Source of the DNA: Prosopocoilus inquinatus
Taxonomy: Eukaryota; Arthropoda; Insecta; Coleoptera; Lucanidae
Direction of reading: 5' to 3'
Assembly (NCBI GenBank): GCA_036172665.1
Contig: CM069870.1
Span: forward strand, 40,754,001-40,818,000
Length of the DNA stretch: 64,000 nt
In this document: in pieces, positions 3,531 through 54,561 of the stretch
How positions within the stretch are numbered: position 1 is the stretch's first letter
Layout: each line of letters opens with the position of its first letter
Notes under the pieces: generated by a model
Told to the model about the DNA's origin: nothing
The model's input: only the letters and a program-made list of their open reading frames with translations
Databases searched by the model: none
Translations under genes and position numbers: made by a program

Positions 3531-4944
3531 GGTCCACGGCGATTCCATTTCCATTAACAATGTGCCCCAGGTAATTCACTTCCTTCTGGAACAGGTGGCA
3601 CTTCTTGAGGCTAAGCTTTAGTCCAGCTCCGCGAAGCCGCTGGAACACTCTTTCCAGGTTCCTCAGATGGTCGTCGAACGTTTTTCCAACGACAATTATG
3701 TCGTCAAGGTACGCCATGCACGTTGTCCAGGACAGGACAGACCTTTCAGAACCGTCTCCATTAACTTCTCGAATATCGCTGGGGCATTACATAACCCGAA
3801 TGCCATCACTGTGAATTGCCACAGATCCATACCAATGGAAAACGCCGTCTTTTCTCGATCTTCAGGCGCCAGCTCCACTTGCCAATATCCACTCTTTAAG
3901 TCCAAAGTTGAGAAGATCTTTGAGCCGGCCAGGGTGTCCAGGGTATCATCAATCCGTGGCAGGGGATAGCTGTTCTTCTTGGTGACATTGTTGAGTGACC
4001 GGTAGTCTACACAGAACCTGGTGGATCCATCCTTCTTCTTCACAAGCACTACTGGTGACGCCCACGGGCTGCTTGATGGTTCTATTACATTATCCTTTTC
4101 CATCTCGCGAATAATGCGTTCCGCTTCCTCCTCCAATGGTAATCGCCTTGGAGCTTGACGGATAGGTCTTCCTTCTCCAGTCTCTATTTTGTGTTTCACG
4201 ACATCAGTTCTTCCCTTGGATCCATTTTCTACCTCGAATACATCTTGATAGCGGCCGATCAGATTCTTTGCTTTTGTCTTCTGGTCTGGAGTCAATTCCT
4301 GGGCTGTTGACATAACCATTTCCCATAATTTCGTTGAAGGAAGAGAGGACTCCTCTTCCAATCCTCTGATCATCAGTATTAGGTTCAACCATAATGACTT
4401 GCCCATCTTGAAAAACACCGTCCAGTTTTGCGTCGACGATAACCTCAGTCCTGCTGGGTAATACAACGTCTTCAGCGAGGACTACTCGAGCGGTCATGTC
4501 TCCTCGTTGATGTAGAACCAACTCCTCACTATTGACCGCCATCACGCCATGCTTTAAGTCCAATTGGAACCCGTGGGCACACATGACGTCCATGCCCAAA
4601 ATTGCCTCGTCCTCTATGTCTGCCACCAGTGCACGGTGTTTTATTGGAGTTGAACCCATGGTGATGATAACCTCTACTTCACCGTGGACAGTTGCTGATG
4701 TTCCAGTTGCAGTTTTCAGTCTCCACTTGGTCGGCTTGGTGCGTCCAGATGACTTGATGACGTCGGGTCTTAGGATGGTCTTCGTCGCACCCGTATTCAA
4801 TAATATGGTGTGAGGACTGTCATCAATGGTAACATCCACGAAGACACTGCTGGTTAACTGCCGTAGGGATATTACTTCCTTGGATCCTGTCTGGGCTTTG
4901 GACATCGCCTGCGAACATGTCCTTCCTCCTGGCAATTCCAACAC
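3531..4944 (-). pseudogene. B1 pol fragment: protease and reverse transcriptase
   Basis: The protease motif near 4795 reads LLNTGATKTI, so the catalytic Asp is Asn; B2 has Asp at the same place. The flap and C-terminal motif AILGMDVMCAHG follow. The RT segment (4466-3696) holds FCVDYRSLNNVTKKNSYPLP and continues in another frame with YLDDIIVVGKTFDDH, cut off after VDP by element A. At least one frameshift separates the protease-linker frame from RT and another separates the RT halves. The Gag zinc-knuckle frame stops at 4872 and protease is in the -1 frame, consistent with -1 ribosomal frameshifting, which B2 supports only weakly. The copy cannot make an active Pol. Confidence 0.85.
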
Positions 4945-7128
4945 ACCAGCGGCTTCTTCTTAAGACCTGTTCCACAATGCGGCGAACATCCTCGGCGGTG
5001 GTATGTTTCCTGGGTCGCTCCTTTATAGCAGATCCCACCTTGGAGTTAGCGATTTCCTCCTCTTCTTCTTGACATGCCCTCTTGATACTTGTCTCGCCGC
5101 TCCAAATTCCAAGGCATAAGCCAATGCATTCTTGGACGTTTTCGGATGGGTCATTCTCACTGCCTGCTGGTTGTCTGGGTCACGGATTCCATCTATGAAG
5201 CTCTGCACCGTCAAACATTTCAGGAATTCAACAGGAGCTGTGGGATATGCCAACTGGGCCAGACGCGCTACGTATACTTCGAATTCCTGAAGACTTTCTC
5301 CGGATTTCTGACAGCTATTCCTCAACTGCGCATGGTATACCTCGGTCAGATGGGGCTGTCCGTAACGGATTTCCATCCTATTCACCAGCTTGTCGAAGTC
5401 TTCTTGTTCCTCTGGCGGCATCGTCTTTAGCACATCGACAGCGTCCCCTCTCAAGGCCACAATTAACGAAGTGGTTTTTTCGCTGGCCGTCCATCTGTTC
5501 ACCTTTGCAGCTGCTTCGAACTGTTTGAAGTAGCTGGGCCAAGAAGACTTTCCATCGAACGTTGGTGGTTTTATTTTCAATTTCGCATTTTCTGCTGGTC
5601 CTTCCACAATTCGGGTTTCATTATTTTCTAGTGTTTCTACTGGTGGCTGATCCCCGAACACTCGCAACCCCGCCATGATTTGTTCCAGATTTTTGCTTTT
5701 ATTATCTTGCTGGAATATTATATCCTCCACATTACCTTGCAGGTTTCTTGTTTCTTCCGATATTTTTACCACTAGTTTATCTTCGAGTCCTTTCGTCTGT
5801 TCTAGAAATTAACCCTTCAAATTTCCAGATTGTTCTAGAAGCTTCTCTTCTAAATTTCTGGATTGTTCTCGAAGCTCGTCCTTGAAATTTCCAGATTGAT
5901 CTAGAAGCTTCTCTAGATTTCTGGATTGTTCTCGAAGTTCGTCCTTGAAATTTCCAGATTGTTCTAGAAGCTTTTCCTCTAAATTTCTGGATTGTTCTCG
6001 GAGCTCGTCCTTGAAATTTCCAGATTGTTCTAGAAGCTCCTCCTCTAAATTTCTGGATTGTTCTCGGAGCTCGTCCTTGAAATTTCCAGATTGTTCTAGA
6101 AGCTTCTCCTCTAAATTTCTGGATTGTTCTCGAAGCTTCTCTAAATTTCCAGACTGTTCTTGAAACTTCTCGTCCAAATATCTGGATTGTTCTCGAAGTT
6201 CGTCCTTGAAATTTCCAGATTGTTCTAGAAGCTTTTTCTCTAAATTTCCAGACTGTTCTTGAAACTTCTCGTCCAAATTTCTGGATTGTTCTCGAAGTTC
6301 GTCCTTGAAATTTCCAGATTGTTATAGAAGCTCCTCCTCTAAATTTCTGGATTGTTCTCGGAGCTCGTCCTTGAAATTTCCAGATTGTTCTAGAAGCTTC
6401 TCCTCTAAATTTCTGGATTGTTCTCGAAGCTTCTCTAAATTTCCAGACTGTTCTTGAAACTTCTCGTCCAAATATCTGGATTGTTCTCGAAGTTCGTCCT
6501 TGAAATTTCCAGATTGTTCTAGAAGCTTTTTCTCTAAATTTCCAGACTGTTCTTGAAACTTCTCGTCCAAATTTCTGGATTGTTCTCGAAGTTCGTTCTT
6601 GAAATTTTCAGATTGTTCTAGAAGCTTCTCCTCTAAATTTCTGGATTGTTCTCGAAGCTTCTCTAAATTTCCAGACTGTTCTTGAAACTTCTCGTCCAAA
6701 TTTCTGGATTTTTCTCGAAGTTCGTCCTTGAAATTTCCAGATTGTTCTAGAAACTTCTCTTCCAAATTTCTGGATTGTTCTCGAAGTTCGTCCTTGAAAT
6801 TTCCAGATTGTTCTAGAAACTTCTCGTCCAAATTTCTGGATTGTTCTCGAAGTTCGTCCTTGAAATTTCCAGATTGTTCTTGAAACTTCTCGTCCAAATT
6901 TCTGGATTGTTCTCGAAATTCATCCTTCAAGATTTTATTAAAATCGGCGGGACCACACGAAATTTCGAAAAGGAACGTCTCTGGATCTTCGCCAGCTGTA
7001 AACAAATCGCATCGGAGACGCTGTTGAAGTGCGCCTTTCAAACCACAGGTTTCTAACTCTCGTTCTTCCAATTCGGTTTTTAATTAGGCCGCTTTTAAGT
7101 CTTTCAACAACACTTTTCTCGTAGCCAT
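4872..7128 (-). pseudogene. B1 gag: SAP-like domain, 11-residue coiled-coil array, capsid, CCHC
   Basis: Begins at the ATG at 7128 (MATRKVLLKDLK) but has TAA at codon 15. The first 45 residues match the SAP DNA-binding pattern (LKDLK..., ELEERELETCGLKGALQQRL). Next comes an array of about 33 repeats of 11 residues, mostly EQSGNFKDELR alternating with EQSRNLEEKLL (about 6930-5820). The hendecad spacing predicts a long coiled coil. Stops interrupt the array at 6319-6321 and near 5806. The capsid-like part (5772-5023) includes the PPTFDGKSSWPSYFKQFEAA region. A CCHC knuckle CWNCQEEGHVRRRC lies near 4915, in a shifted frame. Several stops and shifts make this a pseudogene. The SAP call is from the sequence pattern and would need a profile search. 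Confidence 0.8.
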
Positions 7129-7204
7129 TGTTTTTTTCCGATACCGTACTTATCTGCTAATCTGATTAAATTTAGTTTACTTTAAATTGTTTATTTATTT
7201 GCAC

Positions 7205-8850
7205 CACGATATAGAGAACACTGGTACGCTCACTCGCCGCCATTTTCAGTTTAAAATTTTGAGCAAGTTGAGTAGTTTATAAAAATTCGCTAGATGGAGA
7301 ACCTTATCGCGGACTGTCATTTTTATCAAATTCCGCAGCCGGTTCTTGTTGGGCTCTTGTTCTATATAGGCTCTTGTGGTAAACACAAAACACATGGGCA
7401 GAAAAACAGACTTAAACAGTACGCAACAAACAGCTTTGAGGTTAGATACTGCATTTTAAATTTTAACTGTGATTTTAAAGCGAAGTTGTCGGGCGTAGAA
7501 ATTTTAATTTAAAGGGGGTATGTATTGGCGAATAATTTAATTCGTTTCCTAATTTAGTTACATTGCAGCCAAATAGCGACTTCTCAGAGTTAATTTGTAT
7601 TGAAGCAAGGAGATTTTAACATAAACATGAACTCATCGTAAGATTGCTAGCTAACCTAGAATATCCACCAATCTAACAGGCATTAAACTGACCGACGTAC
7701 TGATTAAAATGTACTCAATATAACGAGTGGATATAAACTCACAAAAGTATCTATCTAGCAACATCAGTTATGCATGCAAGTGACACCAAAAGTGCATAAA
7801 GTTAAAACACCTAAACGTTACTGCAGCTTGTTTTCTTCAAGTTTGATGACCTTACAAATTAATTCCATCGAAGCTGAAAATATCAAGTGTTATATGAGAG
7901 GCACATAACCTTCTTTATATTATTTCTAATTTAATAAAGATATTGTTTAATCTGATTACATCCCTTATTCCAAGATTACCGTAAGAGAAGCACTTGTCTT
8001 CATTTGCATCACAAGTTTGAAAACGCTGATGATGATGACCAACGCAATGAAAGTTTATCTACGTTTCACTCTGACACACGTAATGAAGCAAATAGCGTCT
8101 TCGATTCATTTGCACTGGTTGCAGTCAGAGTATTTGCATCTTGTAATAACACAAGATAAAGATACTCGTAAATTTGGGTTACAGATGTAGACTACCAGAT
8201 GTACATACCATTAATTATGAAATATTGTTAATTATAGATTTCGGAAAGGCTTCAAGAATGAACCAAAATGCAGGTGTCACAATATTGAAGTAACATTTTG
8301 TGTGCTTGATACATTTTCAAGAAAAATTTGTAAAAAATCATTATTAAGTCAGTGGAAATGAAATCATTCGAAGAACACTGACAGATGATGCTATTCCTCA
8401 ACTAAATGTATGCTCCTACTAATGCTAATCTCACATCTGCCCTTTCTTCTACCACTACCAAACAGATACAAGAAACAAATAATACGAATAGCCTCTGAAA
8501 GGTTTGTCACAGCAAAAACGTATTTGCTCGTTACATTAGTAAATATCTTTCTAAATCTGTTTGATTGCTTGCTAAATTTGACAGTCGCCGTTTATTCTTT
8601 GTTTCATACACACCAACCAAAGTTTGCCATTAGAACACACGTAAATACTGAATATACGTCGCCTACAACCTTGCCAACAACACGTAATGTAAGCTACAGG
8701 AGTACATTAATGACGTTTAGTGACAGTCCTTCATACATTGGTGTCATCTAGCGGTAAAATTTAAATCACGTAACTAGGCACTACTTTTGACTTCCTCGTT
8801 TTGTATGGAGAAGATAGGCAAGTGCGCATACCAGTGTTCTGTATATCGTG
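7205..8850. mobile_element. X1: non-autonomous DNA transposon, 1,646 bp, 8-bp TSD
   Basis: The ends are imperfect terminal inverted repeats beginning CACGATATA(G/C)AGAACACTGG and extending about 35 bp. The 8-bp direct repeat ATTTGCAC flanks it at 7197-7204 and 8851-8858. An 8-bp duplication fits hAT or P superfamilies; the TIR does not look like a typical hAT CAGGG end. I see no transposase: open frames inside (for example 8410-8751) show no recognisable domain. It interrupts the leader of B1. A second, partly deleted copy lies at about 39650-41205. Confidence 0.8.
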
Positions 8851-8862
8851 ATTTGCACAAAC

Positions 8863-9270
8863 TAGGGATACCGATACCCGATAAGTTTACTACCCGGGTA
8901 CTCGTTATTGATACCCGGGTAGTTACCCGTTACCCGATAAGTACCCGTTACCCGATAAGTACCCGGGTATCCGATAAGTACCCGATATCCGACAACTACT
9001 TGGCTATCCGATAAGTATCAACTAACAATTTAAAAAACCAGTATAGAATTATCTGAAATAATTAATGCTCATTCGAGCAAAATGTTAATGTAGGTCAGAT
9101 TAGGCAAAATGAAATGAAGACTACTTGGTTGTTCGGCAATTTCAGAATATCGGGTAACGGGTAATTATCGGGTATCGGGTAGTTATCGGGTAACGGGTAT
9201 TCAAAAAGAGGAACCGGTTCCATCTAAGTAAACGGGTACCTGGGTACCCGGGTACCCGTCGTCATCCCTA
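8863..9270. mobile_element. hAT-type MITE, 408 bp, TSD GCACAAAC
   Basis: The element starts TAGGGATACCGATACCCG and ends with the inverse of TAGGGATGACGACGGGTACC. It is filled with short repeats of the words TACCCG and GATAAG. An exact 8-bp duplication GCACAAAC flanks it (8855-8862 and 9271-9278). The 8-bp TSD and TAGGGATG end are typical of hAT MITEs in insects. It has no coding capacity. It sits 12 bp from X1 and its target overlaps the X1 TSD. Confidence 0.88.
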
Positions 9271-9295
9271 GCACAAACCCACACACCGACACAAC

Positions 9296-9627
9296 TGTTA
9301 CGTTTCTAGGGTTTAAATTAATTTATTTAAACGAATATAACACTCGGTAAAAACTTAACCGTAATTTCATAATGCTTAACAATCTAATTTATTTGTAACA
9401 ATTTATTTACACACTAAATCTAACTTCGACGATCGCTATTTATAATCCGACTGACTCATGAGTCCACCCCGGCCGATTTTATATTCTACGCTGCCTTCTC
9501 GTTTGTTCCATCGCTGGAAAAGTCTAGTTTGTTCGGTATAAGCCCCGGTGGCGTGGCGGCCGATGACGCATAGAACCGACTTCTTGACGCCTCCAGTTTG
9601 ACGTAGTGAGCTGGGTGGCGCGCCACA
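9296..9627 (-). repeat. B1 5' LTR (332 bp)
   Basis: On the minus strand it starts TGTGGCGCGCCACCCAGC and ends AAACGTAACA, followed by a primer-binding-like GTGTCGGTGTGTGGG. It aligns along its length with the 350-bp LTRs of B2 but with many differences. A TATA-like ATATAAAATCGGCC and an AATAAA are at matching positions. The other LTR is not in the window, so no TSD can be checked. Confidence 0.85.
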
Positions 9628-11020: not shown

Positions 11021-11153
11021 TTTTTTTTTTTGATAATGTTTTAAATTAATTTTTTGTAATTTTAAGCTAAAAAGGAACTCTTTTGATATAATAATGCTTT
11101 ATTTTTAAGTTTTAAACATATTTTTTTTTGAAGTTCTTGTCCGATGAAAATAG

Positions 11154-12848
11154 TAAGTACAAAGTTTTTTTAATCTCAAACCGGACAGAAAAATGAAGGG
11201 AAACACACTCAACGTTTCGCTATAGATTTATAGCTTCGTCAGGAGTGAAAAAAAAAAAGTAAATAAACAAGTTGTCAAGAGAAACAAGTCGTCAAGAGAA
11301 ACGAAAAGGTAACATGATTTTTAAACTAAACTACGAGTTGTTCGGAATAAAAGTAACGAGAACTAATTAAAGCTACTTTTTTTTTTTTTAAATATATATA
11401 ATTAATTAATTGACAGATCTATATCTTGTTTAAAGAGTCCAGAAAACTACAAAATATGTCATTTAAATTTTCAAAGTCCGTACGTTTATTAATAGAATTT
11501 CCAGACATTTTAATTTTACACATTTCTATGAAACGTCTTTTAAAAATATTAGATTCACTGTACAAAATGTCAGTATTATCAAAATCAAAATTATGATTAT
11601 TTACTAATGAATGCTCTACAAGCATTGAATGATTTTGATTATTTTTTTGAATATGATATTTATGTTGGTCTAAACGTTTTTTTAAATTTTGGCTCGTTTC
11701 ACCTATATAAACAGAATTACAATTTGAACATTTGATTTCATAAACCACGTTAGGTTGTTTTAATTTCGGTATTTTGGTTTTTAAATTCGAAAAAATTAAA
11801 TTTAAATTATTCACAGATTTACTGGCTAAAATTAAATTATGTTTTTTGAAAATGTGTTTAAATGTATTGTGTAATGGTTCAATATAAGGCAAAGATATGT
11901 ATTTATGATTCGAAGTTTGTCTAATGTTTTTAGAGACATTTGAATTTTGTAAGTATTTAATACGATTTTTAATTACTGATTCAATAAGATTTATTGGATA
12001 AGAATTTTGAATAAGAGTTTTCTTTATTAAATTTAAGTTATCATAAATGAAAACTTTATCAGAAAGTAAAATAGCTCGATCAGTTAATGAAATAATAGTT
12101 GCAATTTTATAATTTTTAGGTGTGTACGAGTGAAAATTTATGTACCTACCTGACCAGGTAGGTTTATGAAACCAATTAGTAATTAATTTATCATTCTGTC
12201 TGATAATATTTACATCAAGAAAACTCAATGAATTATTATTTTCTTTTTCTACTGTAAATTGTAATCTATTATGAAAAGAATTAAATTTATTTAAAACAAA
12301 TTCTACCTTATCAGAAGGCAAAATCAATAAAATGTCATCTACATAACGAAAATATAACGTTAAATCGAATGATAAAGAGTTAATAACAGATTTTTCTAGT
12401 TCTTGCATAACAATTTCAGCTAAAGCCGGAGATAAAGGAGAACCCATTGCTGTACCAAAAATCTGTTTATAAAATTTATCATTGAAAGCAAAATAAGATG
12501 TTTCAAAACATAAATCAACTATTTCTAAAAAGTTACCTTTGGAAATATCAGTAAAATCTTTAATCTCTAACCACCTATCATTTATACTTTTTAAAGCTAA
12601 ATCTTTAGGAATGTTAGTAAATAAAGAAATAACATCTAAAGAAATTATAATGCAATTATTTGGTACAGTTATTTGTTTTAATTTTTCTACGAGTTCAAAA
12701 GAATTTTTTATAAAATATTCTGATTTACTAGTAACCTGAGTAATGATTTTTGAAATAAATTTAGATAAGAAATATGGAGAAGAACCAATAGTGGAAACTA
12801 TAGGACGAAGAGGTGTATTAGGTTTATGAATTTTTGGAATGCAGTATA
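11154..12848 (-). mobile_element. Penelope-like element, left arm of palindrome
   Basis: A 1,695-bp minus-strand copy whose sequence is the reverse of 13063-14757, differing to my eye only in an A-tract length (11 against 13). It is truncated at the 5' end inside the RT domain at 12848. Its 3' end carries a hammerhead-like motif (11206-11247). Both outer flanks contain matching host-like words (AAGCTAAAAA and GATATAATAATGCT), suggesting one insertion event for the pair. Confidence 0.88.
11206..11247 (-). ncRNA. Hammerhead-ribozyme-like motif, left Penelope arm
   Basis: On the minus strand: stem I CACTC pairs with GAGTG; between them are core CTGACGA, a hairpin GCTATA-AATC-TATAGC, then GAAA and CGTT. 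This is the type I layout with a minimal ACGU helix III, as known for Penelope-like elements. One extra A sits before stem II, which departs from the textbook core. Confidence 0.6.
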
Positions 12849-12852
12849 ACAA
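11419..12852 (-). CDS. Penelope-like RT plus GIY-YIG endonuclease, 5'-truncated copy
   Basis: 477 codons, starting in RT at YCIPKIHKPNTPLRPIVS. It has the RT motifs GTAMGSPLSPALAEIV and FRYVDDILLI (catalytic YVDD) followed by a C-terminal GIY-YIG nuclease (VVYEIKCSNCNSVYIGETSQ, then the Arg of KKRLDQH). Established knowledge: Penelope-like elements pair an RT with a GIY-YIG nuclease for target-primed insertion. The N-terminal RT part is missing, so the product is unlikely to work. The protein matches the right-arm copy residue for residue over the shared length. The nominal start codon belongs to spacer sequence, not to the element. Confidence 0.88.
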   Translation of the reverse strand: MLYCIPKIHKPNTPLRPIVSTIGSSPYFLSKFISKIITQVTSKSEYFIKNSFELVEKLKQITVPNNCIIISLDVISLFTNIPKDLALKSINDRWLEIKDFTDISKGNFLEIVDLCFETSYFAFNDKFYKQIFGTAMGSPLSPALAEIVMQELEKSVINSLSFDLTLYFRYVDDILLILPSDKVEFVLNKFNSFHNRLQFTVEKENNNSLSFLDVNIIRQNDKLITNWFHKPTWSGRYINFHSYTPKNYKIATIISLTDRAILLSDKVFIYDNLNLIKKTLIQNSYPINLIESVIKNRIKYLQNSNVSKNIRQTSNHKYISLPYIEPLHNTFKHIFKKHNLILASKSVNNLNLIFSNLKTKIPKLKQPNVVYEIKCSNCNSVYIGETSQNLKKRLDQHKYHIQKNNQNHSMLVEHSLVNNHNFDFDNTDILYSESNIFKRRFIEMCKIKMSGNSINKRTDFENLNDIFCSFLDSLNKI

Positions 12853-14491
12853 TGTAACTGTTTTAATTGATAAAACTGATTATTTTTCAAAAGTTCAAAC
12901 TATGCTGTCTGATAATAATACATATGTAGAATTAGCTAACGATCCCACCGAATCTTATCAACGTAAAACTTTCAGTATTATTAATAAGATAGAGAAATCC
13001 GTTGAAATTAGTAATATTGTTGCTAAATCTCTTAAAGTACAACATCCCATATTTCCTAAATTATACTGCATTCCAAAAATTCATAAACCTAATACACCTC
13101 TTCGTCCTATAGTTTCCACTATTGGTTCTTCTCCATATTTCTTATCTAAATTTATTTCAAAAATCATTACTCAGGTTACTAGTAAATCAGAATATTTTAT
13201 AAAAAATTCTTTTGAACTCGTAGAAAAATTAAAACAAATAACTGTACCAAATAATTGCATTATAATTTCTTTAGATGTTATTTCTTTATTTACTAACATT
13301 CCTAAAGATTTAGCTTTAAAAAGTATAAATGATAGGTGGTTAGAGATTAAAGATTTTACTGATATTTCCAAAGGTAACTTTTTAGAAATAGTTGATTTAT
13401 GTTTTGAAACATCTTATTTTGCTTTCAATGATAAATTTTATAAACAGATTTTTGGTACAGCAATGGGTTCTCCTTTATCTCCGGCTTTAGCTGAAATTGT
13501 TATGCAAGAACTAGAAAAATCTGTTATTAACTCTTTATCATTCGATTTAACGTTATATTTTCGTTATGTAGATGACATTTTATTGATTTTGCCTTCTGAT
13601 AAGGTAGAATTTGTTTTAAATAAATTTAATTCTTTTCATAATAGATTACAATTTACAGTAGAAAAAGAAAATAATAATTCATTGAGTTTTCTTGATGTAA
13701 ATATTATCAGACAGAATGATAAATTAATTACTAATTGGTTTCATAAACCTACCTGGTCAGGTAGGTACATAAATTTTCACTCGTACACACCTAAAAATTA
13801 TAAAATTGCAACTATTATTTCATTAACTGATCGAGCTATTTTACTTTCTGATAAAGTTTTCATTTATGATAACTTAAATTTAATAAAGAAAACTCTTATT
13901 CAAAATTCTTATCCAATAAATCTTATTGAATCAGTAATTAAAAATCGTATTAAATACTTACAAAATTCAAATGTCTCTAAAAACATTAGACAAACTTCGA
14001 ATCATAAATACATATCTTTGCCTTATATTGAACCATTACACAATACATTTAAACACATTTTCAAAAAACATAATTTAATTTTAGCCAGTAAATCTGTGAA
14101 TAATTTAAATTTAATTTTTTCGAATTTAAAAACCAAAATACCGAAATTAAAACAACCTAACGTGGTTTATGAAATCAAATGTTCAAATTGTAATTCTGTT
14201 TATATAGGTGAAACGAGCCAAAATTTAAAAAAACGTTTAGACCAACATAAATATCATATTCAAAAAAATAATCAAAATCATTCAATGCTTGTAGAGCATT
14301 CATTAGTAAATAATCATAATTTTGATTTTGATAATACTGACATTTTGTACAGTGAATCTAATATTTTTAAAAGACGTTTCATAGAAATGTGTAAAATTAA
14401 AATGTCTGGAAATTCTATTAATAAACGTACGGACTTTGAAAATTTAAATGACATATTTTGTAGTTTTCTGGACTCTTTAAACAAGATATAG
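12839..14491 (+). CDS. Penelope-like RT plus GIY-YIG endonuclease, longer copy
   Basis: 550 codons. The first 70 or so add the region before RT motif 1 (DKTDYFSKVQTMLSDNN, KTFSIINKIEK), which is missing in the left arm. RT motifs (GTAMGSPLSPALAEIV, FRYVDDILLI) and the GIY-YIG motif (VYIGETSQNLKKRLDQH) are intact, with cysteine pairs CSNC just before it. The first few codons come from the junction with the left arm, so the real start lies upstream in a full element. It is 5'-truncated compared with usual Penelope-like proteins of about 700-900 residues. No internal stop, so the insertion is recent. Confidence 0.9.
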   Translation: MQYNNVTVLIDKTDYFSKVQTMLSDNNTYVELANDPTESYQRKTFSIINKIEKSVEISNIVAKSLKVQHPIFPKLYCIPKIHKPNTPLRPIVSTIGSSPYFLSKFISKIITQVTSKSEYFIKNSFELVEKLKQITVPNNCIIISLDVISLFTNIPKDLALKSINDRWLEIKDFTDISKGNFLEIVDLCFETSYFAFNDKFYKQIFGTAMGSPLSPALAEIVMQELEKSVINSLSFDLTLYFRYVDDILLILPSDKVEFVLNKFNSFHNRLQFTVEKENNNSLSFLDVNIIRQNDKLITNWFHKPTWSGRYINFHSYTPKNYKIATIISLTDRAILLSDKVFIYDNLNLIKKTLIQNSYPINLIESVIKNRIKYLQNSNVSKNIRQTSNHKYISLPYIEPLHNTFKHIFKKHNLILASKSVNNLNLIFSNLKTKIPKLKQPNVVYEIKCSNCNSVYIGETSQNLKKRLDQHKYHIQKNNQNHSMLVEHSLVNNHNFDFDNTDILYSESNIFKRRFIEMCKIKMSGNSINKRTDFENLNDIFCSFLDSLNKI

Positions 14492-14757
14492 ATCTGTCAA
14501 TTAATTAATTATATATATTTAAAAAAAAAAAAAGTAGCTTTAATTAGTTCTCGTTACTTTTATTCCGAACAACTCGTAGTTTAGTTTAAAAATCATGTTA
14601 CCTTTTCGTTTCTCTTGACGACTTGTTTCTCTTGACAACTTGTTTATTTACTTTTTTTTTTTTTCACTCCTGACGAAGCTATAAATCTATAGCGAAACGT
14701 TGAGTGTGTTTCCCTTCATTTTTCTGTCCGGTTTGAGATTAAAAAAACTTTGTACTT
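12849..14757 (+). mobile_element. Penelope-like element, right arm and spacer of palindrome
   Basis: The plus-strand partner of 11154-12848. Bases 12849-13062 are the extra 5' sequence that forms the unpaired spacer between arms. The 3' UTR holds A-rich tracts and a hammerhead-like motif, then ends near TTTGTACTTA. Head-to-head arrangement of differently truncated copies is known for Penelope insertions. Confidence 0.88.
14665..14706 (+). ncRNA. Hammerhead-ribozyme-like motif, right Penelope arm
   Basis: Same 42-nt sequence as the left-arm motif in opposite orientation: CACTC, CTGACGA, a six-pair hairpin, GAAA, CGTT, GAGTG. It lies in the 3' UTR about 175 bp after the stop codon. Confidence 0.6.
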
Positions 14758-14774
14758 AATATTTTTTTTTAGTG

Positions 14775-22010: not shown

Positions 22011-22475
22011 AAAATTTTTGTCCAGGCTGTTTTAGTAACGCTAGCGCTAGGAGTAATTGTAAATTTGGCGCGAATGAAATGTCACATGTTGTCGATGTCA
22101 ATTGCTTTAGTGATGGCGGTGATTTTGAACGTTTAAGTAAAATAAAGAACTGGCACAAATATAATGGGTTAAATCAAATTGTCCGTCAAATAAACGTTGT
22201 TGATGATTAAATTATTTTTGTGTGACCAGTGAATAGTCTCTAATATAAACAGAGTTTGAGAAAAATGGACCTCGCAAGATCTGCAAAAGAACATTTACTT
22301 GTGTAGTTATTGGATGTAATTCATGTTCCACTCATACCAAATTTCCTTCAATTTGGAATTGGGGCTGCTAATTTAGGTAACGAAGCTCTGTGACAGTTTC
22401 GATGCAAGAAGATGTGTACGCGTCTCACTGATGAAAGGTTAGCATTACCGTTAGCATCATAACAATCCATAATAT
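22011..22475. other. Unassigned sequence between elements C and D
   Basis: A plus-strand frame (about 22040-22210) reads CKFGANEMSHVVDVNCFSDG and so on but I do not recognise it. The stretch ends AACAATCCATAATAT, the target of element D. It may be host sequence or an older repeat. Confidence 0.35.
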
Positions 22476-22853
22476 TGTCACAAATGATGCTAAGGTAGGT
22501 ATCAATTATTGTTATAACTGTTTTAATTAATTAGTTATAAATTTGGATAAATGATTTGCTGACTTCAGCAGGCAGGCATAATAAAACCGCTAGGAAAACG
22601 CGTCGCGGGTACAGACAGATAGACAGACAGACGGGTGTGTGTGTGCGGTGCCGTGGACGTCACCTGGCGGTTACCGGGCTCTGCTTGCTGAAGGGATTCT
22701 TTGAGTTTTTGCAAATAAACCGCTTCTGAAAGGTATGGTTATTTTTATTTTTAACTTTCCAGCATTCCATTAAGGTACCTCCGCTACTAGCTAGCGACTG
22801 CTCCCTCTGAGCAACCCCCCTTTGCGACCCTTGATCTTACCAGGGTCGTGACA
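22476..22853 (+). repeat. D 5' LTR (378 bp)
   Basis: TGTCACAAATGATGC ... AGGGTCGTGACA. It contains a GACA/GT-rich stretch and CTTGCTGAAGGG. The partner is at 32642-33017. The two differ by three substitutions and a GT-repeat length change. Confidence 0.93.
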
Positions 22854-23408: not shown

Positions 23409-24728
23409 ATGGATAAACGACAAAAACCTAAGACTCGTTCACAAAGCAAAGAAGACGACAAAAATAAATACGATATAGAGATAAATTTGGAAAAGGATGT
23501 ATTTTTCCCTAGCGCGAGGAGCTCGCTAATTCCGCGTTCTCCTAGTCAAACACCCGTTCCTGCCGCAAGTGAATATTTAGAACCCGTGGTTCCTCCAATT
23601 TCATCGATAGTTACTACAATTAATGAACCGACCACTCTTACAGTTCTTCCGGAAAGTACTCCTCCAGAAATAAATAAATTTAAATGCCTTTCCGATAATT
23701 CAGAAATACCCCCGCCGCCGCCGCCCTCAAGTTTCTCTATTAACAGTGTACTACCCCCCGAAATTGCTTTTGACCGAGATAATAATTCATCAAAAATGTT
23801 CGAGTCAGTTCGTATGACAAATGATAACTCTTATGACGAGGTGGTTGGCTCAGAAATTACCCCAAATTCTAATATCAAAAAAACCGGTGCCATTCCAAAA
23901 TCAACAAGATTCCAGTTGCCAACAGAAACAATTAATGAATCTGTGAGATTTCCTCAAGCTAATTCTAGAAAAAGTTCTAAACCAGTTAGGGATGCTCACA
24001 TAGCGGACACTTTTATTTTAGAATCACAAGAATCTCATAATTTCTCAAACAGTAATCCTGCTACAGTCAATAACACATTATCAATGTTACTTCAAAATCG
24101 AACTCCTACAAAACCGAAATATTTCCCACCACCTATTTTTGATCCGTCCTCCGATGACGCAATTTTTTTCTTAAAAAACTATAAATTAGCTGCACAGTCG
24201 AACGCGTGGGATGATACACTTCAATTATGTTATTTTGGTAATTCTTTACGAAATTCGGCTGCAGTGTGGTTCCGGGAATTTGTTAAAAGACATCCAAATG
24301 CCGACTGGACATTGACAACAAAAGAATTTAAAAACAAATTTATCGGTCCGAGTTACGATACAGATATTGAAGCTAGATTAATTTCTCGCAGACAACAAAC
24401 AGATGAGCAATTAATAACATATTACTACAATATTTTAGACTTATGTTACGAGGTTAACCCAAATATGGCCGAAACGGACATTATTAAACGAGTTCTTGCA
24501 GGGTTATTACCATATCACAGATATTTGATAAATTTAACGCGTCCTTCATCGCTCGGGGAAATTGAAAATTTCATTGAATATGTAGCTGAAACAGAACGAG
24601 AAGGTCACTCTTTCAAAACAGAGATACTGCCGAAAACCATAAGTAAACTGAATGGTTCTACGTCACAGAACTCACATTCGGTACAAAATTCACAATTTCT
24701 ACAAAATTCACAAGTTTTAACAATATAA
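23409..24728 (+). CDS. D Gag
   Basis: 439 codons, intact. The N-terminal half is Pro- and Ser-rich and probably disordered (PPPPPPSSF). The capsid-like part runs from about residue 230 (PPPIFDPSSDDAIFFLKNYK, AVWFREFVKRHPNADWT, RLISRRQQTDEQLITYYYN, RVLAGLLPYHRYLINL). There is no CCHC knuckle, as in the gypsy errantivirus group. It ends in a Gln/Asn/Ser-rich tail and a double stop TAATAA. The following protease frame is in the same phase, so pol would need read-through or the stop may be a mutation. Confidence 0.88.
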   Translation: MDKRQKPKTRSQSKEDDKNKYDIEINLEKDVFFPSARSSLIPRSPSQTPVPAASEYLEPVVPPISSIVTTINEPTTLTVLPESTPPEINKFKCLSDNSEIPPPPPPSSFSINSVLPPEIAFDRDNNSSKMFESVRMTNDNSYDEVVGSEITPNSNIKKTGAIPKSTRFQLPTETINESVRFPQANSRKSSKPVRDAHIADTFILESQESHNFSNSNPATVNNTLSMLLQNRTPTKPKYFPPPIFDPSSDDAIFFLKNYKLAAQSNAWDDTLQLCYFGNSLRNSAAVWFREFVKRHPNADWTLTTKEFKNKFIGPSYDTDIEARLISRRQQTDEQLITYYYNILDLCYEVNPNMAETDIIKRVLAGLLPYHRYLINLTRPSSLGEIENFIEYVAETEREGHSFKTEILPKTISKLNGSTSQNSHSVQNSQFLQNSQVLTI

Positions 24729-24785: not shown

Positions 24786-25361
24786 TTGGAATCAAACGGC
24801 GAGGGCCTAAGTAATAATAATAAAAATGTTAATAAAGGTCACAGTAAAAATTGGACATTTTATAATACAACGCCAGCCACCGTAGCGCCTGTATTTTTAA
24901 AAGATACGAATATACTTGAAATTAAAGGAAAAGTAAACAATAAATATATAACAGCGATATTAGATACTGGCTCATCATACAATTTAGTAAGACCTTGTTT
25001 TGCCAATAAAATTTCTCCTTTAAAAGAGGAATTAATCCTAAATACAATAAATAATTATCACGTTTATCCTATAGGTATAACTGAAATCGTAATTAACATA
25101 AACGAAGAAAGCTATCCTATAAAAGCTTTAGTTGTTGATAAATTAGCACCACATATTATTTTAGGGTATCCCTTTTTGAAGGACAATCAGGCCAATATAA
25201 ATTTCATTAATAATACTGTAACTTTTAAAAAAGACCGCATAAAAATGTTTAAGAACGACACGGAGGTTGACTTTGGAAGTAACACGATAGCGAACGACGG
25301 TCAGCAGCGTTCTAGTATTAGCATAGGTCAGGATACCCCACATATTTTCAAAGAAAATTAA
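24786..25361 (+). CDS. D retropepsin (protease)
   Basis: 191 codons in the same phase as gag. The active-site motif is ILDTGSSYNLV at about residue 58, and the C-terminal motif is PHIILGYPFLKDN. The upstream bases 24729-24785 are open, so the real protease frame starts earlier. It ends at TAA (25359-25361), after which the same frame continues into the macro domain; the intact element therefore probably had one longer pol frame. Confidence 0.85.
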   Translation: MESNGEGLSNNNKNVNKGHSKNWTFYNTTPATVAPVFLKDTNILEIKGKVNNKYITAILDTGSSYNLVRPCFANKISPLKEELILNTINNYHVYPIGITEIVININEESYPIKALVVDKLAPHIILGYPFLKDNQANINFINNTVTFKKDRIKMFKNDTEVDFGSNTIANDGQQRSSISIGQDTPHIFKEN

Positions 25362-26372
25362 GACTTTTCCATTAGTTACGAAAAATGTTTTTCAGATTTT
25401 GTTAAGCATTCTCAATCAACGTTAACGTATTCAAATATTAAGGAAGAATGCGGAGATTTATTTAAAACATTCAAACAATACAGTTTAGCTCATTGTGTGG
25501 CGCGAGATTTTCAAATGTCCTCGGGAATCGCAAGGGTTTTTAAAGAAAAATTTAACAATGTTACGCAACTTAAAAAACAAAATCCTAAAGTGGGAGGTTT
25601 AGCATTCCTCAAAATCAATAAGCGTTTTATATATTATTTAGTCACAAAAAACAAGTCAAATGAAAAACCTACTTATGAAGCAATTTTTAATAGCTTATGC
25701 AATTTGAAAAAACACATGACAATAAACGAGATCAATAAATTAGCAATACCCAAAATTGCCTGTGGGTTAGATGGATGTAAATGGGATATAATAAAAAATA
25801 TGATCTTGTATGTCTTCAAAAATTCCAATATTAATATCAAAATATATCATTTAAACAAGGAAACGGAAACAGAAGCATCCAATACCATACAAAATAGTAG
25901 CGTTGATCTATGGAATACATTACCTGATCAAGAAATTGTAAATGAAATTTCGAACAATAAAATAATTAAAGTTAAACTATGTGAAGACGTAGTTATTGCA
26001 CGAAAATGTAATAAAAAATGTCACGTTACAATAGATAATTTAAATAACAATGAGAAAGTAACATTTTACACTTTCTTTCCTAGAATGGAGTTTCTGAATA
26101 AAAATAAATTAGAATTAAGCGATCCTTTTGAATTTCTGGGTGACCATCAAATAAATATTTTTAATTATGGAAACTTTGCTTCCACATTACGTAAAGGAAC
26201 AGTATTGGGTTATTTATACAAAACTGATGACTTTGTTAATGACACAGCCGACAATGAAGAAAATTTTGATTTTAACAAAAACTTTGTTTGTAATGTACAA
26301 AGTGAACAACACTTTAATATTAGTGCTGAATTGGGCGATAAAGAAAAACAAAGGTTAAGTAAATTACTTTGA
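25362..26372 (+). CDS. D macro domain (TARG1/OARD1-like) and pre-RT linker
   Basis: Same phase as protease; the first Met is 25497 but the domain starts near 25435 (EECGDLFK). Visible motifs: YSLAHCVARDFQMSSGIARVF (in two parts), FIYYLVTKNK, KPTYEAIFNSL and KLAIPKIACGLDG. They follow the fold order of the TARG1/OARD1 macro domain. Human TARG1 removes ADP-ribose from proteins using Lys84 and Asp125; the equivalents here are the Lys of LVTK and the Asp of CGLD, both present. From about 25870 the frame becomes the linker that precedes RT in this group (FPRMEFLNKNKLELSDPFEF). A TGA at about 26370 separates it from RT in the same phase. A cellular role in reversing host ADP-ribosylation is inference. 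Confidence 0.85.
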   Translation, partial: DFSISYEKCFSDFVKHSQSTLTYSNIKEECGDLFKTFKQYSLAHCVARDFQMSSGIARVFKEKFNNVTQLKKQNPKVGGLAFLKINKRFIYYLVTKNKSNEKPTYEAIFNSLCNLKKHMTINEINKLAIPKIACGLDGCKWDIIKNMILYVFKNSNINIKIYHLNKETETEASNTIQNSSVDLWNTLPDQEIVNEISNNKIIKVKLCEDVVIARKCNKKCHVTIDNLNNNEKVTFYTFFPRMEFLNKNKLELSDPFEFLGDHQINIFNYGNFASTLRKGTVLGYLYKTDDFVNDTADNEENFDFNKNFVCNVQSEQHFNISAELGDKEKQRLSKLL

Positions 26373-26387
26373 AATAATAACGACATT

Positions 26388-27482
26388 ATGGCATGGGATT
26401 CATCAATGTTAGGACTGACACATTTAACCGAACACACAATTGACATTGGAAATAATGCACCGGTAAAATCGCGTCCTTATAGAGTGAGCCTTAAAGAAAG
26501 AAATATCATTTCAAATCAAATTCAAGAAATGTTGGAGTTAGGTATAATTCGTCCTTCAGATAGTCAGTTTGCAAGCCCAGTGGTCTTAGTTAAAAAACCT
26601 GACAACACCTACCGTTTCTGTGTCGACTACAGAAAACTAAATGCAATTACAACCAAATTCGCTTATCCGCTGCCCCTAATCGATGACATTTTAAATTTTC
26701 TCGGCGGAAATAGTTATTTTACAACTTTAGATTTAAATAGCGGTTATTGGCAGTGTGCGATTAAAGAAGAGGATAAGCATAAATCAGCGTTCATAACGAA
26801 TGACGGATTATTTGAATTTAATAGACTTAGTTTCGGTCTCTGTAATGCTCCGGGAACTTTCCAGAGATTAACGGATATAGTTTTTAAAGATCTAAAATGG
26901 AAAGAGGTCGCTATTTATTTAGATGATATAATAGTAGTAAGTAAAACTTTTGATGAACATTTAGATCGATTAAATAACGTTTTCCAATGCATCAGAAATG
27001 CAGGTCTAACTCTAAAACCTGTTAAATGTAAGTACGCTTATAAAAACATACATATTCTAGGATTTAACATCTCTGGTAATGGTATTCAACCAGACAATCG
27101 AAAAGTTGAGGCGGTAATTTCTTTTCTAACTCCAAAAAAGGTTAAAGATGTGCAGAGTTTCTTAGGTTTATGCAATTACTACAGAAGATTCATTCCTGGT
27201 TTCTCAATTATAGCTAAACCTCTTTATAATATTATCGGATCTAAGTCGAATTTCATCTGGGAAAGATCTCAAGAAACTGCATTTAATATACTGAAATCTA
27301 AGCTTGCAAGTCCACCTCTTTTACATCATTTCAATCCATTGGCGGATACAGAATTACACGTAGATGCTAGTGGTGTGGGTATTGGAGCTGTTCTACTTCA
27401 AAGAGATCATATATCTGGTAAACTTTATCCTTTGTCTTATATTTCTCGCACTCTAACTCCGTATGAGAAAATTATACAATAA
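26388..27482 (+). CDS. D reverse transcriptase and start of RNase H
   Basis: 364 codons, same phase as gag and protease. RT motifs are complete: RPSDSQFASPVVLVKK, FCVDYRKLN, TTLDLNSGYWQ, FGLCNAPGTFQRL and catalytic IYLDDIIVVS. The RNase H start LHVDASGVGIGAVLLQ follows. The frame is lost at 27480 in EKIIQ; the next phase carries on with SELECLAAVW, so one base has been gained or lost. Confidence 0.9.
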   Translation: MAWDSSMLGLTHLTEHTIDIGNNAPVKSRPYRVSLKERNIISNQIQEMLELGIIRPSDSQFASPVVLVKKPDNTYRFCVDYRKLNAITTKFAYPLPLIDDILNFLGGNSYFTTLDLNSGYWQCAIKEEDKHKSAFITNDGLFEFNRLSFGLCNAPGTFQRLTDIVFKDLKWKEVAIYLDDIIVVSKTFDEHLDRLNNVFQCIRNAGLTLKPVKCKYAYKNIHILGFNISGNGIQPDNRKVEAVISFLTPKKVKDVQSFLGLCNYYRRFIPGFSIIAKPLYNIIGSKSNFIWERSQETAFNILKSKLASPPLLHHFNPLADTELHVDASGVGIGAVLLQRDHISGKLYPLSYISRTLTPYEKIIQ

Positions 27483-28278
27483 GTGAATTAGAATGTTTGG
27501 CTGCAGTTTGGGCAGTTGAGTACTTCAGATCGTATCTTTGGGGCTTACAAAATTTCATAAAGTAACTGATCACCATTCTCTTTGCTGGCTTCAATCATTA
27601 AAAACTCCCGGTAGCAGGTTAGTTCGATGGGCACTCAAATTAATGGAATATTCGTATAAAATTTTTCATAAAAAAGGATCCGCAAATAAGGATGCAGATG
27701 CTCTTTCTAGATATCCCTGTACGGAGGCAACTACATTCGATCAATCTAAAGCTTTAGAGGTTCCATCTTTTTTAATTTCAACAAAGGAATTAATCAACTT
27801 ACAATCTAAGGATGCACGAATACAAGAGATTATTGCAGCTATTAACGATGAACAATTCGGTGGACCGGCTTTACAAAGGGCAGCTAAAAATTTTGAAATT
27901 ATAAACGGCATTTTATATAAAATTCAACCAAACACAGAAACGAAATTATTAGTTATACCAGCAGATATACGCGCAGAAATTTTATATAATAATCACGATG
28001 AACCTATTAGCGGACATTTAGGAATTTCTCGAACATTAGACAAAATTAGAAAAAAATACTTTTGGGAAGGTATGAAGCGCGATGTAGAAAAATATATTAA
28101 GGGATGTCCTGATTGCCAAATCCGTAAAGGGTTAAATCAAAAACCTGCAGGATTATTAAATCCGATCGAAGTAGGAAATCCTTTCGAAATGGTTGGTTGG
28201 TATAGATCTTCTAGGCCCTTTTCGAAAAAGCAATTCTGGTTGTACATTTATCGTTGTGGCGACAGATTATGCGACTAG
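27483..28278 (+). pseudogene. D RNase H end and integrase zinc domain
   Basis: After the shift, SELECLAAVWAVEYF is read first and another shift lies near 27535-27545. The main frame (27538-28278) contains VTDHHSLCWL, the ADALSRYP end of RNase H and an intact HHCC zinc domain (HDEPISGHLGISRT ... CPDCQIRK). It runs out of phase at about 28190, where the integrase core resumes in the next frame. Confidence 0.82.
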
Positions 28279-29029
28279 GTGGGCGGAGGCCAAAGCTCTT
28301 CCTAATGGTAAAGCAGAAGCTGTTGTAAAATTTATCATACAGCAGATCATTTGTCGACATGGTTCACCACAAAAGTTACTCAGCGACAGGGGAGCTGTCT
28401 TCATGTCACGTCTCGTCACAGAGTTATTAAGGTTGCTAGGCACAGGGAGTAGTTTTGCTACAGCTTACAAACCCTCTACCAACGGACTCACCGAACGGCT
28501 AAACAAAACGTTGGCAGACATGTTGAGTAAATATTGTTCCACGTCTCAAAAGGATTGGGATGTCTTCCTTCCTCATTGCGTATTTGCGTATAATACCACT
28601 CGTCAGGAAACTATCAAATGTAGCCCTTTCTCTTTAGTTTATGGCAGAGAACCTGTTTTACCGTCCGATGCTCAAATAAATCAATTAATGACAACTGATT
28701 TTGCATTGCGTAATCAAAAAGCAATTATAAAGTTAAGAGAAGAAGTTCGTAATAATATTATTAAACAACAAAAAATTGATAAAACACGATATGACGAAAA
28801 ACATCGTAATGCGAGTTTTGAAGTAGGAGATAAGGTAAAATTAAAAGTGTTCATCAGACAAGTAGGAAAGAGCGACAAGTTACAACCAAAATATTTTGGC
28901 CCATATACGATAGTTGAAAAACGAAATAACTTAAATTACGTTATAGAATCGGGAAAAGGCAAAAAGGCCAAACGAGAGACAGTTCACATTTCGCGTTTAG
29001 CTCCTTATTACGAAAAATGGACGCCATAA
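28193..29029 (+). CDS. D integrase core and C-terminal domain
   Basis: 278 codons. The DDE triad is visible: IDLLGPF, LLSDRGAVF and NGLTERLNKTL. The C-terminal barrel has VGDKVKLKVFIRQV and YFGPYTIVEKRNNLNYVI, ending LAPYYEKWTP. The start Met is internal; it should be joined in phase to the zinc domain by one frameshift. There is no macro domain after this integrase, unlike element B2. Confidence 0.87.
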   Translation: MVGIDLLGPFRKSNSGCTFIVVATDYATRWAEAKALPNGKAEAVVKFIIQQIICRHGSPQKLLSDRGAVFMSRLVTELLRLLGTGSSFATAYKPSTNGLTERLNKTLADMLSKYCSTSQKDWDVFLPHCVFAYNTTRQETIKCSPFSLVYGREPVLPSDAQINQLMTTDFALRNQKAIIKLREEVRNNIIKQQKIDKTRYDEKHRNASFEVGDKVKLKVFIRQVGKSDKLQPKYFGPYTIVEKRNNLNYVIESGKGKKAKRETVHISRLAPYYEKWTP

Positions 29030-29185: not shown

Positions 29186-31087
29186 ATGGAGTTATATTAT
29201 TTCTTATACTTGATATTTTTCACATTTGGATATGGAGAAGAAGACGTAAAAATTCCATATAAAGTCGAATCGTTAGAAAAAACATCAGGAATTTTATTTG
29301 AAGATGTAGGTAATTTATATCTGACTAATACTTTTTGGAATATTATTACTTACATAGATTTAGAGTCATACGATGATAAATTTGTTCAACTGAAAAATAT
29401 GTTTAGGGAAACAACAGAAATCTGTAATGAGCCTTTGCTTGAGAAAAATGAACTATGTGGCAATTACATTAATTTAATAAATCAAACTATGAATCGGGTC
29501 ACTTGGGAAAGAAATGTAATACCAAGTTTCATTGGCCACATTCGAGTAAAAAGAGGGTATTTTGATATTGTAGGTAAAGCTTCAAAAGTTTTGTTTGGAA
29601 CCTTAACTACAGAAGATGAAGAACATTTCGAGAAAGCAATAGGAGCATTGACAAAAAACGAAAAACAAATGAGTAAAATTTTAGCCAAACAAACTTCTGT
29701 CGTTAAATCAACTTTGGATTCTTTAAATAATACTATTGGTCATTTTCAGCACAATGAAAAAATTATTCTCGAAAATTTTCAAAAATTAAAATTTTTGGTA
29801 AACAGTACTTTAACCGACATCGATTTTATTTATAAAATAGATAGACGACTGAAGGATCATGTAGCTTTGCTAACTCTTTTAATTGATCAATAGCAGTTAG
29901 AAACAACGAATCTTGTAAATGTATTAGTTGCTGCGAAGCAAGGAATTTTGCACCTCTTATTAATTACACCCACGACTATCATGGAACAACTAAATACAAT
30001 TATTAACCATATTCCACCAGGGCTAAAATTATCATTTAATATTTTAGATCATGAGGATAATACACTTTTGTGGCGAATTTTAAAGGTAAACGTTTTTATT
30101 CTACAATCAAAATTGAATTGTGCTTTAAAAATTCCATTAGTTCATGTAAATCCTTACCTTCTATTTAAAACTGTATCAGTTCCAATTAGACTACGTGACA
30201 ACAACTTTATATTTATTAACAATTAATTTGGATATTTAGCAATTAATGAACTGCACAATAAATATTTTCATTTAGATGAAAGTGAATTTCAGAATTGTTT
30301 TATTTCAGAAAACAGAAACTACATTTTAAATTATGAAAAACCAATATTATCTGACTCAACAATCATGTGAAGTTCAGTTATTTCGGCCACTGAAAGAATT
30401 GCCCAATGTATGTGAAAGACATATCATTTATTTGAATAGAACAAAATTTATTGAGTCAGGCGTTTATAACTCGTGGATTTTCGTAGCACCAAACAGAGAA
30501 ACAATGACTGTTAATTGCAAAAATAACCAAAAAATTGAGTATATAGAATTATGGGGTACAGGAAGAATTACACTATCTGAAGAGTGCAAAGGGTTTTCCA
30601 AAAACATAATTTTAAATCCAGTTCATTCAGTTAAGTTTACAAAAAGTATTCAATATTCATCACGCTGGAAATTCTTTCATTACAACACAACAGAAAAAAA
30701 TTAATAAATCCATTGATTGCTGACCTTGACAAAATAAATTTTTATAAGTTGGAAGACTTAGTTAAAGGAAGTAGGCTAAAAGAAAACAGTAGAAATTTAG
30801 ATGAGGTGTTAAAAGATATTGACGATCTAGATTTAAATTTTAATTTCAGAAGAAACACACACATAGGATTCATTACCACGGGCACGGTATTAACTGTAAT
30901 TGGTATAGTTATTATAATTTGGTGTTATTTAAAATTAAGAACATGTTGTGCAAATAAAGTGACAAGAAGGGATTCGCAAGGAATTGTTGGTTCAAAACAG
31001 TACGATGAGGGAATCTTTGTCTTGCCAGACTGGAGAAGTTGTAAGATTAATCTTAAAGCATCTACATCAGAGTCGAGTCTACATTAA
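29186..31087 (+). pseudogene. D env: errantivirus/baculovirus-F-like envelope, broken
   Basis: The first block (29186-29893) begins with a hydrophobic signal-like segment (YYFLYLIFFTFGYG), then contains a furin-like RVKR at about residue 123, followed by GYFDIVGKASKVLFG, the typical place of the fusion peptide, and a helical region. A TAG ends it at 29893. Further blocks (29948-30226, 30333-30704, 30713-31087) continue in shifted frames. The last has a membrane segment (GTVLTVIGIVIIIWCYL) and a short basic tail. At least one stop and two shifts disrupt it. The order and motifs match the F-like envelope family known from insect errantiviruses. Confidence 0.85.
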
Positions 31088-32628: not shown

Positions 32629-33017
32629 AGAGGGGGGGAAATGTCACAAATGATGCTAAGGTAGGTATCAATTATTGTTATAACTGTTTTAATTAATTAG
32701 TTATAAATTTGGATAAATGATTTGCTGACTTCAGCAGGCAGGCATAATAAAACCGCTAGGAAAACGCGTCGCGGGGACAGACAGATAGACAGACAGACGG
32801 GTGTGTGTGCGGTGCCGTGGACGTCACCTGGCGGTTACCGGGCTCTGCTTGCTGAAGGGATTCTTTGAGTTTTTGCAAATAAACCGCTTCTGAAAGGTAT
32901 GGTTATTTTTATTTTTAACTTTCCAGCATTCCATTAAGGTACCTCCGCTACTAGCTAGCGACTGCTCCCTCTGAACAACCCCCCTTTGCGACCCTCGATC
33001 TTACCAGGGTCGTGACA
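32629..33017 (+). repeat. D polypurine tract and 3' LTR (376 bp)
   Basis: The tract AGAGGGGGGGAAA directly precedes the LTR, which starts TGTCACAAATG at 32642 and ends GTCGTGACA at 33017. The 4-bp ATAT follows. Confidence 0.92.
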
Positions 33018-47787: not shown

Positions 47788-48137
47788 TGTGGCGCGCCAA
47801 CCGGCTTAGCTCAAGGCGTCAAGAAGTCGGTTCGTTATGCGTCATTGGCTGCCACGCCTCCGGGGTCTACATCGAACAGACTAGACTTTTCCGGCGATGG
47901 AACAAACTCGAATCTTCCAGCGTGGAGAATTCGAGACGGCCGCAAAGGATATAAAATCGGCCAAAGTTGACTCACCAGTCAGTCGAGTTCTAACTAGCGA
48001 CCGTCGAAGTGAGATTTTAGTGTGTAAATAAATTGTTACAAATAAATTAGTTTTTAAGCTTTATTAAATTACGGTTAAGTTTTTATCAAGTGTTTTATTC
48101 GTTTAAATAAATAAATTTAAACCCTATAAACGTAACA
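47788..48137 (+). repeat. B2 5' LTR (350 bp)
   Basis: TGTGGCGCGCCAACC ... AAACGTAACA. A polyadenylation signal AATAAA is at 48027-48032. The partner is 54212-54561. Confidence 0.93.
47950..47984 (+). promoter_or_regulatory. B2 LTR core promoter: TATA box and initiator
   Basis: TATAAAA at 47950-47956 and an insect-type initiator TCAGTC at 47979-47984, whose A is 31 bases downstream of the first T. This spacing fits RNA polymerase II start selection. The same elements are in the 3' LTR. Confidence 0.7.
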
Positions 48138-48234
48138 GTGGTGTCGGTATGCGGGTTTCTGCAAATAAATAAACAATTTAAAGTAAATTAAATTTAATCA
48201 GGTTATTAAATAAGTACAGTATCGGAAAAAAACA

Positions 48235-54394: not shown

Positions 54395-54561
54395 CTCACC
54401 AGTCAGTCGAGTTCTAACTAGCGACCGTCGAAGTTAGATTTTAGTGTGTAAATAAATTGTTACAAATAAATTAGTTTTTAAGCTTTATTAAATTACGGTT
54501 AAGTTTTTATCGAGTGTTTTATTCGTTTAAATAAATAAATTTAAACCCTATAAACGAAACA
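54201..54561 (+). repeat. B2 polypurine tract and 3' LTR (350 bp)
   Basis: GACGGGGGCAG precedes the LTR, which starts TGTGGCGCGCCACCC at 54212 and ends AAACGAAACA. The pol reading frame overlaps its first 183 bases. Confidence 0.92.

Follow-up and report, generated by a model that had tools for sequence, protein, structure and literature searches.

A TARG1-type macro domain in the pol of an errantivirus-like Gypsy element of Prosopocoilus inquinatus

Element D and its macro domain

The stretch analysed here, called the window, comprises 64,000 nucleotides of the lucanid beetle Prosopocoilus inquinatus (assembly GCA_036172665.1, contig CM069870.1, positions 40,754,001 to 40,818,000 of the forward strand). 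It contains a retroelement with long terminal repeats (LTRs), here termed element D, whose pol region carries a TARG1/OARD1-type macro domain at 25362-25868. The features of element D, and those of a second element, E2, described below, lie on the plus strand.

The 5' LTR of element D (22476-22853, TGTCAC...GTGACA) is preceded by ATAT at 22472-22475, and the 3' LTR (32642-33017) has a purine tract before it and ATAT after it, i.e. the element is flanked by a 4-base target duplication. The two LTRs are 98.7% identical over 379 columns by self-blastn. Between them a Pfam scan finds the parts of a Gypsy element in the usual order: Gag (23409-24728, Retrotrans_gag and Ty3_capsid, E 5.1e-8 and 8.1e-7), a protease (PR) piece (24786-25361, RVP_2, E 3.9e-6), the macro domain, a linker (25869-26369), the reverse transcriptase (RT) with the start of RNase H (RH) (26388-27482, RVT_1, E 3.7e-31), and the rest of RH with the integrase (IN) in two other frames (27538-29029, Integrase_H2C2 E 2.2e-22, rve E 2.4e-8). 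A broken env of the baculovirus F type follows (29186-31087), recognisable by two Baculo_F pieces at 29186-29893 (E 1.4e-10) and 30333-30704 (E 1.8e-9). The domain order, the F-type env and the 4-base duplication support element D as an errantivirus-like Gypsy element, as a preliminary description of the window had proposed.

That description had also placed the macro domain between PR and the pre-RT linker, which the domain positions confirm, and had called it in phase with both. PR, macro, linker and RT do indeed all lie in frame 0, and the macro domain shares one open frame with the linker (25362-26369, 336 amino acids), but in this copy an in-frame stop at 25359-25361, the very end of the PR piece, precedes the macro domain. 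A second stop separates the linker from RT (26370-26372), and further on the reading frame shifts in RH/IN, as it does in env, so the pol of this copy is broken. Other members of the D family have the same domain order in longer open frames, of up to 1430 amino acids. The piece of a D-like relative (L031) that corresponds to the linker gave no Pfam match.

The translation of 25362-25868 is a stop-free run of 169 residues that contains, in order, every macro motif listed in the preliminary description; the domain proper occupies residues 24-164 (25431-25853). Its assignment to the TARG1/OARD1 type holds: phmmer matches it to human OARD1 with E 4.5e-33, and the nearest solved structure is the macro fold of TARG1, with 44% identity across the whole domain. 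The match to the general Pfam Macro profile, proposed as a check, narrowly misses the cut-off of 22 (21.2 bits, E 2.9e-4), and a relative in the same genome (L037) reaches 40.3 bits. Alignments place the equivalents of the catalytic TARG1 residues Lys84 and Asp125 at codons 25647-25649 and 25770-25772, as had been predicted. No nearest relationship to macro domains of the alphavirus or coronavirus type was found for the D macro, and against the NCBIfam equivalog of the bacterial DarG antitoxin it scores 41.2 bits where the cut-off is 250. TARG1 itself is a stand-alone minimal macrodomain; because the D-family domain is part of a pol frame, we speak of a TARG1-type domain and not of a TARG1 gene.

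Distribution, position and constraint of the module

The genome that contains the window (649.6 Mb, 173 contigs) was searched with the macro domain and, independently, with the RT; the best 150 of 1313 macro candidates and the best 150 of 3874 RT candidates were scored, so that all counts are lower bounds. At least 151 macro matches are present; among those listed, the matched stretch of 16 is interrupted by a stop, and 17 have one 1764-amino-acid open frame in common. An RT counted as macro-bearing when one of 150 listed macros lay at most 5 kb upstream of it in the same orientation; an unscored macro may therefore leave an RT looking macro-free. By this measure a macro lies upstream of 20 of the 21 RTs at least 95% identical to that of D (the D family) and of 33 of the 46 RTs with 71-79% identity, which disposes of a local insertion, the outcome named beforehand as fatal to the proposal. 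The remaining 13 of the 46 may be truncated, diverged or lacking the domain, and in the sister set, with 59-61% RT identity, a scored macro was found upstream in none of nine. Macro-free relatives do, however, exist among the pols.

The upstream regions of three of these nine sister loci were fetched. There only about 440-560 bases separate the end of the PR match from the RT, as against about 1100 in D; this leaves room for the linker alone, and the best macro match upstream reaches only E 0.02. Two of the three show a weak match overlapping the PR-linker border (E 0.02-0.05, 30% over 80 residues), which we take for chance. The pattern suggests an insertion between PR and linker that one clade carries and the neighbouring clade lacks. 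Among viral contigs no relatives of the macro or the RT were found.

To read the domain order around other macros, 20 stretches were fetched and searched locally for domains, and 14 pieces were scanned with Pfam. The order PR-macro-RT-RH-IN recurs in the D-like loci L031, L033, L034, L035, L036 and L039 and in L038 (PR detected by Pfam); L032 shows macro-RT-RH-IN with PR undetected, and L037 has the D-like order, its PR lying outside the Pfam scan. Four loci (L042, L043, L046, L048) have RH-macro-IN, and IN-macro is found in L040, L041, L044, L045 and a second element of the window, E2. In L050 the macro precedes the RT in a different frame, L047 has no RT nearby, and L049 is the host gene. 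The module thus sits at three pol positions in one genome.

E2 (47788-54561) is a Gypsy element of another lineage than D. Its LTRs (47788-48137 and 54212-54561) are 98.3% identical, its RT lies at 50865-51920, and its macro domain (53573-54046; tblastn 38% identity, E 2.5e-34) follows the integrase C-terminal domain and has an in-frame stop at 53888-53890. A CCCH zinc finger comes next (54083-54157, zf-CCCH, 28.9 bits, E 1.1e-6), a pairing that recalls the CCCH-finger PARPs; a similar finger after the macro of L044 falls 0.3 bits under the cut-off, and the Pfam scan matched none after the macro of L040. By DNA similarity, 3529-9592 on the minus strand is a partial copy of the E2 family, the matched part of which ends before the macro region.

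A database protein search with an X-padded query gave five matches among 316 candidates. Two are intact Gypsy pols from outside this genome, namely P0087 (RH-macro-IN) and P0089 (macro-PR-RT-RH-IN, 55 contigs), the latter providing a fourth position. The other three are a mayfly protein (P0086), a DNA ligase III (P0088) and a Cloeon protein (P0090). A separate library of genome contigs yielded no relatives of P0089, and in the 37 P0089-like pols listed for this genome the similarity starts at residue 182 or later, past the macro. Because of this and of the varied pol sites, pol lineages seem to have gained or lost the module often. As for the remaining proteins, P0088 is a fusion of a TARG1-like macro with zf-PARP and BRCT domains, and P0084 and P0086, both from Ephemera danica, are larger proteins in which, apart from a TARG1-like macro, Pfam finds no domain above the cut-off; these two are possibly parts of other mobile elements.

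Conservation was examined in 21 representative rows, consisting of 15 of 35 macro loci (E2 included) and 6 database proteins, among them P0084, P0086, L047 and two beetle proteins (Rhamnusium, Exocentrus). Lys84 is kept in all 21 rows and Asp125 in all 20 that cover that position. An alignment of 28 presumed host proteins has 21 invariant positions; D retains 19 of them, E2 18, P0087 17 and P0089 all 21, more than expected from the terminal branches under a uniform rate (P 0.0011, 2.4e-9, 2.5e-5 and 0.0012, respectively), a rough test, as real proteins never evolve uniformly. Ratios of nonsynonymous to synonymous substitution (dN/dS) were listed for pairs with dS 0.05-1.6 and more than 80 codons. 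Between families they are 0.13-0.24 (L037-L038, L033-L039, L033-L036, L047-L050), and every listed pair without L017 gives 0.51 or less; the comparisons of L017 with D copies (0.58-0.72) were dropped, L017 being gapped in the macro region. A macro swap between L037 and L038 was considered (macro dS 1.29 against RT dS 0.25) and given up, as a sliding-window comparison shows a mosaic, with the RT block standing out as the unusually similar segment. The kept catalytic residues, together with dN/dS below 1, speak for function. D-like families are 73-79% identical in RT but 47-52% in the macro, closer to the 36-43% of PR; this is rapid change round a fixed active site.

The same data bear on a possible role as a reader and not an eraser, in which the domain would bind ADP-ribose on chromatin and tether the integration complex to PARylated sites, much as chromodomains tether integration in chromoviruses. 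The macro flanks the integrase in two of the orders, and ADP-ribose binding is general among macro folds; the cleavage residues are nevertheless kept in the rows examined, and in the D and P0089 types the domain is distant from the integrase. We regard this role as unlikely.

Origin of the domain

The host's own TARG1 (L049, contig G000:C5, about 3751725-3753242) consists of two intron-containing copies in tandem, the second of which follows, in one frame, on a long, charged and repetitive stretch. In the trees this host TARG1 groups with beetle proteins (support 100/99), which agrees with a beetle as host. P0089 and the Rhamnusium and Exocentrus proteins, which count as elements only by their clustering with P0089, form a clade (100/98) inside the beetle host TARG1 group. 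The P0089 clade joins Hypothenemus with 98/83 and the beetle group has 100/99; with another alignment the values are 100/99 and 97/95. The element macros of this genome, that of D included, fall outside the clade that holds its own TARG1, and a tree constrained to unite D with that gene is rejected (approximately unbiased test, p-AU 0.008). We conclude from these comparisons that the D macro was not derived from the present TARG1 gene of this host. A clade of D with P0087 and Ephemera (93/91) was lost with another alignment and a reduced set, and was discarded.

These results leave little room for a mere passenger, i.e. a retrocopy of host TARG1 inserted in this single element, or a fusion without function. 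The broken pol of this D copy would suit such an origin, but the presence of the macro at nearly all D-family RTs, its place outside the host clade and dN/dS below 1 oppose it; a local insertion or retrocopy was ruled out by the family-wide presence and the tree, and a passenger in general we consider very improbable.

As to the number of captures, at least two are likely but not proven. One ancient capture, with the domain later moved between pol sites by recombination, would affect the account of origin and not that of function. Most constrained trees that hold element macros together go unrejected: D-like with the P0089 type gives p-AU 0.09, D and E2 as a pair 0.36, and the other tests 0.23 and 0.16, then 0.22 and 0.17, and finally 0.12. 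Two sets are marginal, one with 0.046 and one with all 19 element rows as one clade (0.048). Against a single capture stands the nesting of P0089, Rhamnusium and Exocentrus within beetle host TARG1, which the other element macros do not share. We treat a single capture as possible but doubtful. The clustering with the P0089 pol also makes three beetle TARG1-like gene models suspect (Rhamnusium P0052 and P0085, Exocentrus P0070); they are probably retroelement parts, a warning for annotation that some such models may belong to retroelements.

Two features of the window stand apart from the elements discussed. Positions 11147-12849 and 13061-14765 form a 1.7 kb inverted repeat (99.8% identical), and 62980-63998 is a tandem array with a period near 150 bases and units about 98-99% alike. 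An Rfam scan of the 64 kb at gathering thresholds gave no match.

Proposed function and comparison with known systems

The homology and fold, the catalytic dyad, the in-frame position in pol, the presence throughout the D family and in several others, and the constraint are established by the sequence comparisons. On these grounds we propose, with a probability of roughly 0.6, that the segment is an ADP-ribosyl hydrolase of the TARG1 type which was taken from a host, became a permanent part of Gypsy pol and erases ADP-ribose attached by PARPs. The domain would be made within Gag-Pol, carried with pol into the particle and probably released by the element's protease. In the cell it may remove ADP-ribose placed by host PARPs on element proteins (capsid, integrase) or on RNA or cDNA termini, so that reverse transcription and integration could proceed. 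As the macro adjoins the integrase in two of the orders, a late, DNA-side step is favoured.

The biochemistry of TARG1 agrees with such substrates. According to PMC7050489, TARG1 acts on terminal phosphate esters of nucleic acids and on MARylated proteins, with Lys84 and Asp125 as the residues of the cleavage mechanism. PMC8501950 describes Lys84-dependent removal by TARG1 of thymidine-linked ADP-ribose in DNA, and modification of DNA-end phosphates by PARP1-3 in vitro. Five of the eight mobile elements that change significantly in Drosophila parp-1 mutants go up, springer (gypsy clade) the most (PMC7712786).

Several points weigh against the proposal. The three other changed elements go down in parp-1 mutants, ten more rising elements (nine of them Gypsy) miss the thresholds, and PMC7712786 itself permits an indirect cause. 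The lineage as a whole can do without the module, to judge by the 13 RTs without a scored macro and by the sister set, where none of the nine had one. Few pairs give dN/dS values, and of the four that compare families three have dS above 1.2, near saturation; the low macro identity relative to RT may reflect relaxed constraint as well as conflict.

A rival account involves no conflict with the host. The domain might do housekeeping and remove O-acetyl-ADP-ribose or stray ADP-ribose marks while cDNA is being made, and its pol positions do parallel those of retroviral dUTPase. O-acetyl-ADP-ribose is also cleaved by TARG1, according to PMC7050489. The host's own TARG1 already being present, a plain metabolic need is weakly motivated, and we find this explanation quite improbable.

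Returning to an eraser of PARP marks, an arms race with PARP-based control of transposons, suggested in the preliminary description, is made plausible, but no more than that, by the Drosophila PARP-1 data, and the macro modules hint at an unrecognised conflict between elements and host enzymes that tag with ADP-ribose. We speculate, tentatively, that insects ADP-ribosylate incoming retroelement proteins or cDNA ends as a defence, and that several Gypsy lineages independently added a TARG1 eraser, P0089 from beetle TARG1 and D from older sources. To our knowledge insects lack the expanded antiviral PARPs known from vertebrates; if capture did recur, it would therefore indicate that transposons are under a PARP-based control not yet on the map. 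Insect retroelements would have gained a defined module with a complete TARG1 dyad that may be their counterpart to PARP enzymes, and the idea is testable with the variants that nature provides at four pol positions.

It is instructive to compare element D with known systems. In the full-text literature searched, which covered few subscription papers, no description of a macro domain in an insect Gypsy pol was found. Insect errantiviruses (Metaviridae) share with D the Gag, PR, RT, RH and IN, the baculovirus-F-type env and the ATAT flanks, and we know of no macro domain in those described. TARG1 (OARD1, C6orf130), the ALC1-like macrodomain hydrolase, has the fold and the Lys84/Asp125 dyad in common with the D macro, but it is a small cell protein whereas the D macro is a module within a retroelement pol. 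Viral macro domains are likewise known from alphavirus nsP3, from coronaviruses and from the TARG1-like part of Kadipiro virus VP8, the last of which ranks first among the matches in the viral structure library, with 45% identity to the D macro. Beta- and lentiviruses captured a dUTPase, likewise a cellular enzyme sited where pol domains meet (before PR, or between RH and IN), although enzyme and substrate differ from those of the D macro. An aphid flavi-like virus and two relatives are reported to have a macro-like domain at varying positions (PMC11642819). The one precedent found is that of teleost epsilon-like endogenous retroviruses with macro-domain or CNPase open reading frames, reported in PMC4977317, which cites Basta et al. 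2009. As in D, a retroelement has acquired a macro domain; the fish domain is described as an additional reading frame, whereas here it lies inside the pol frame of an arthropod Gypsy element, at several sites.
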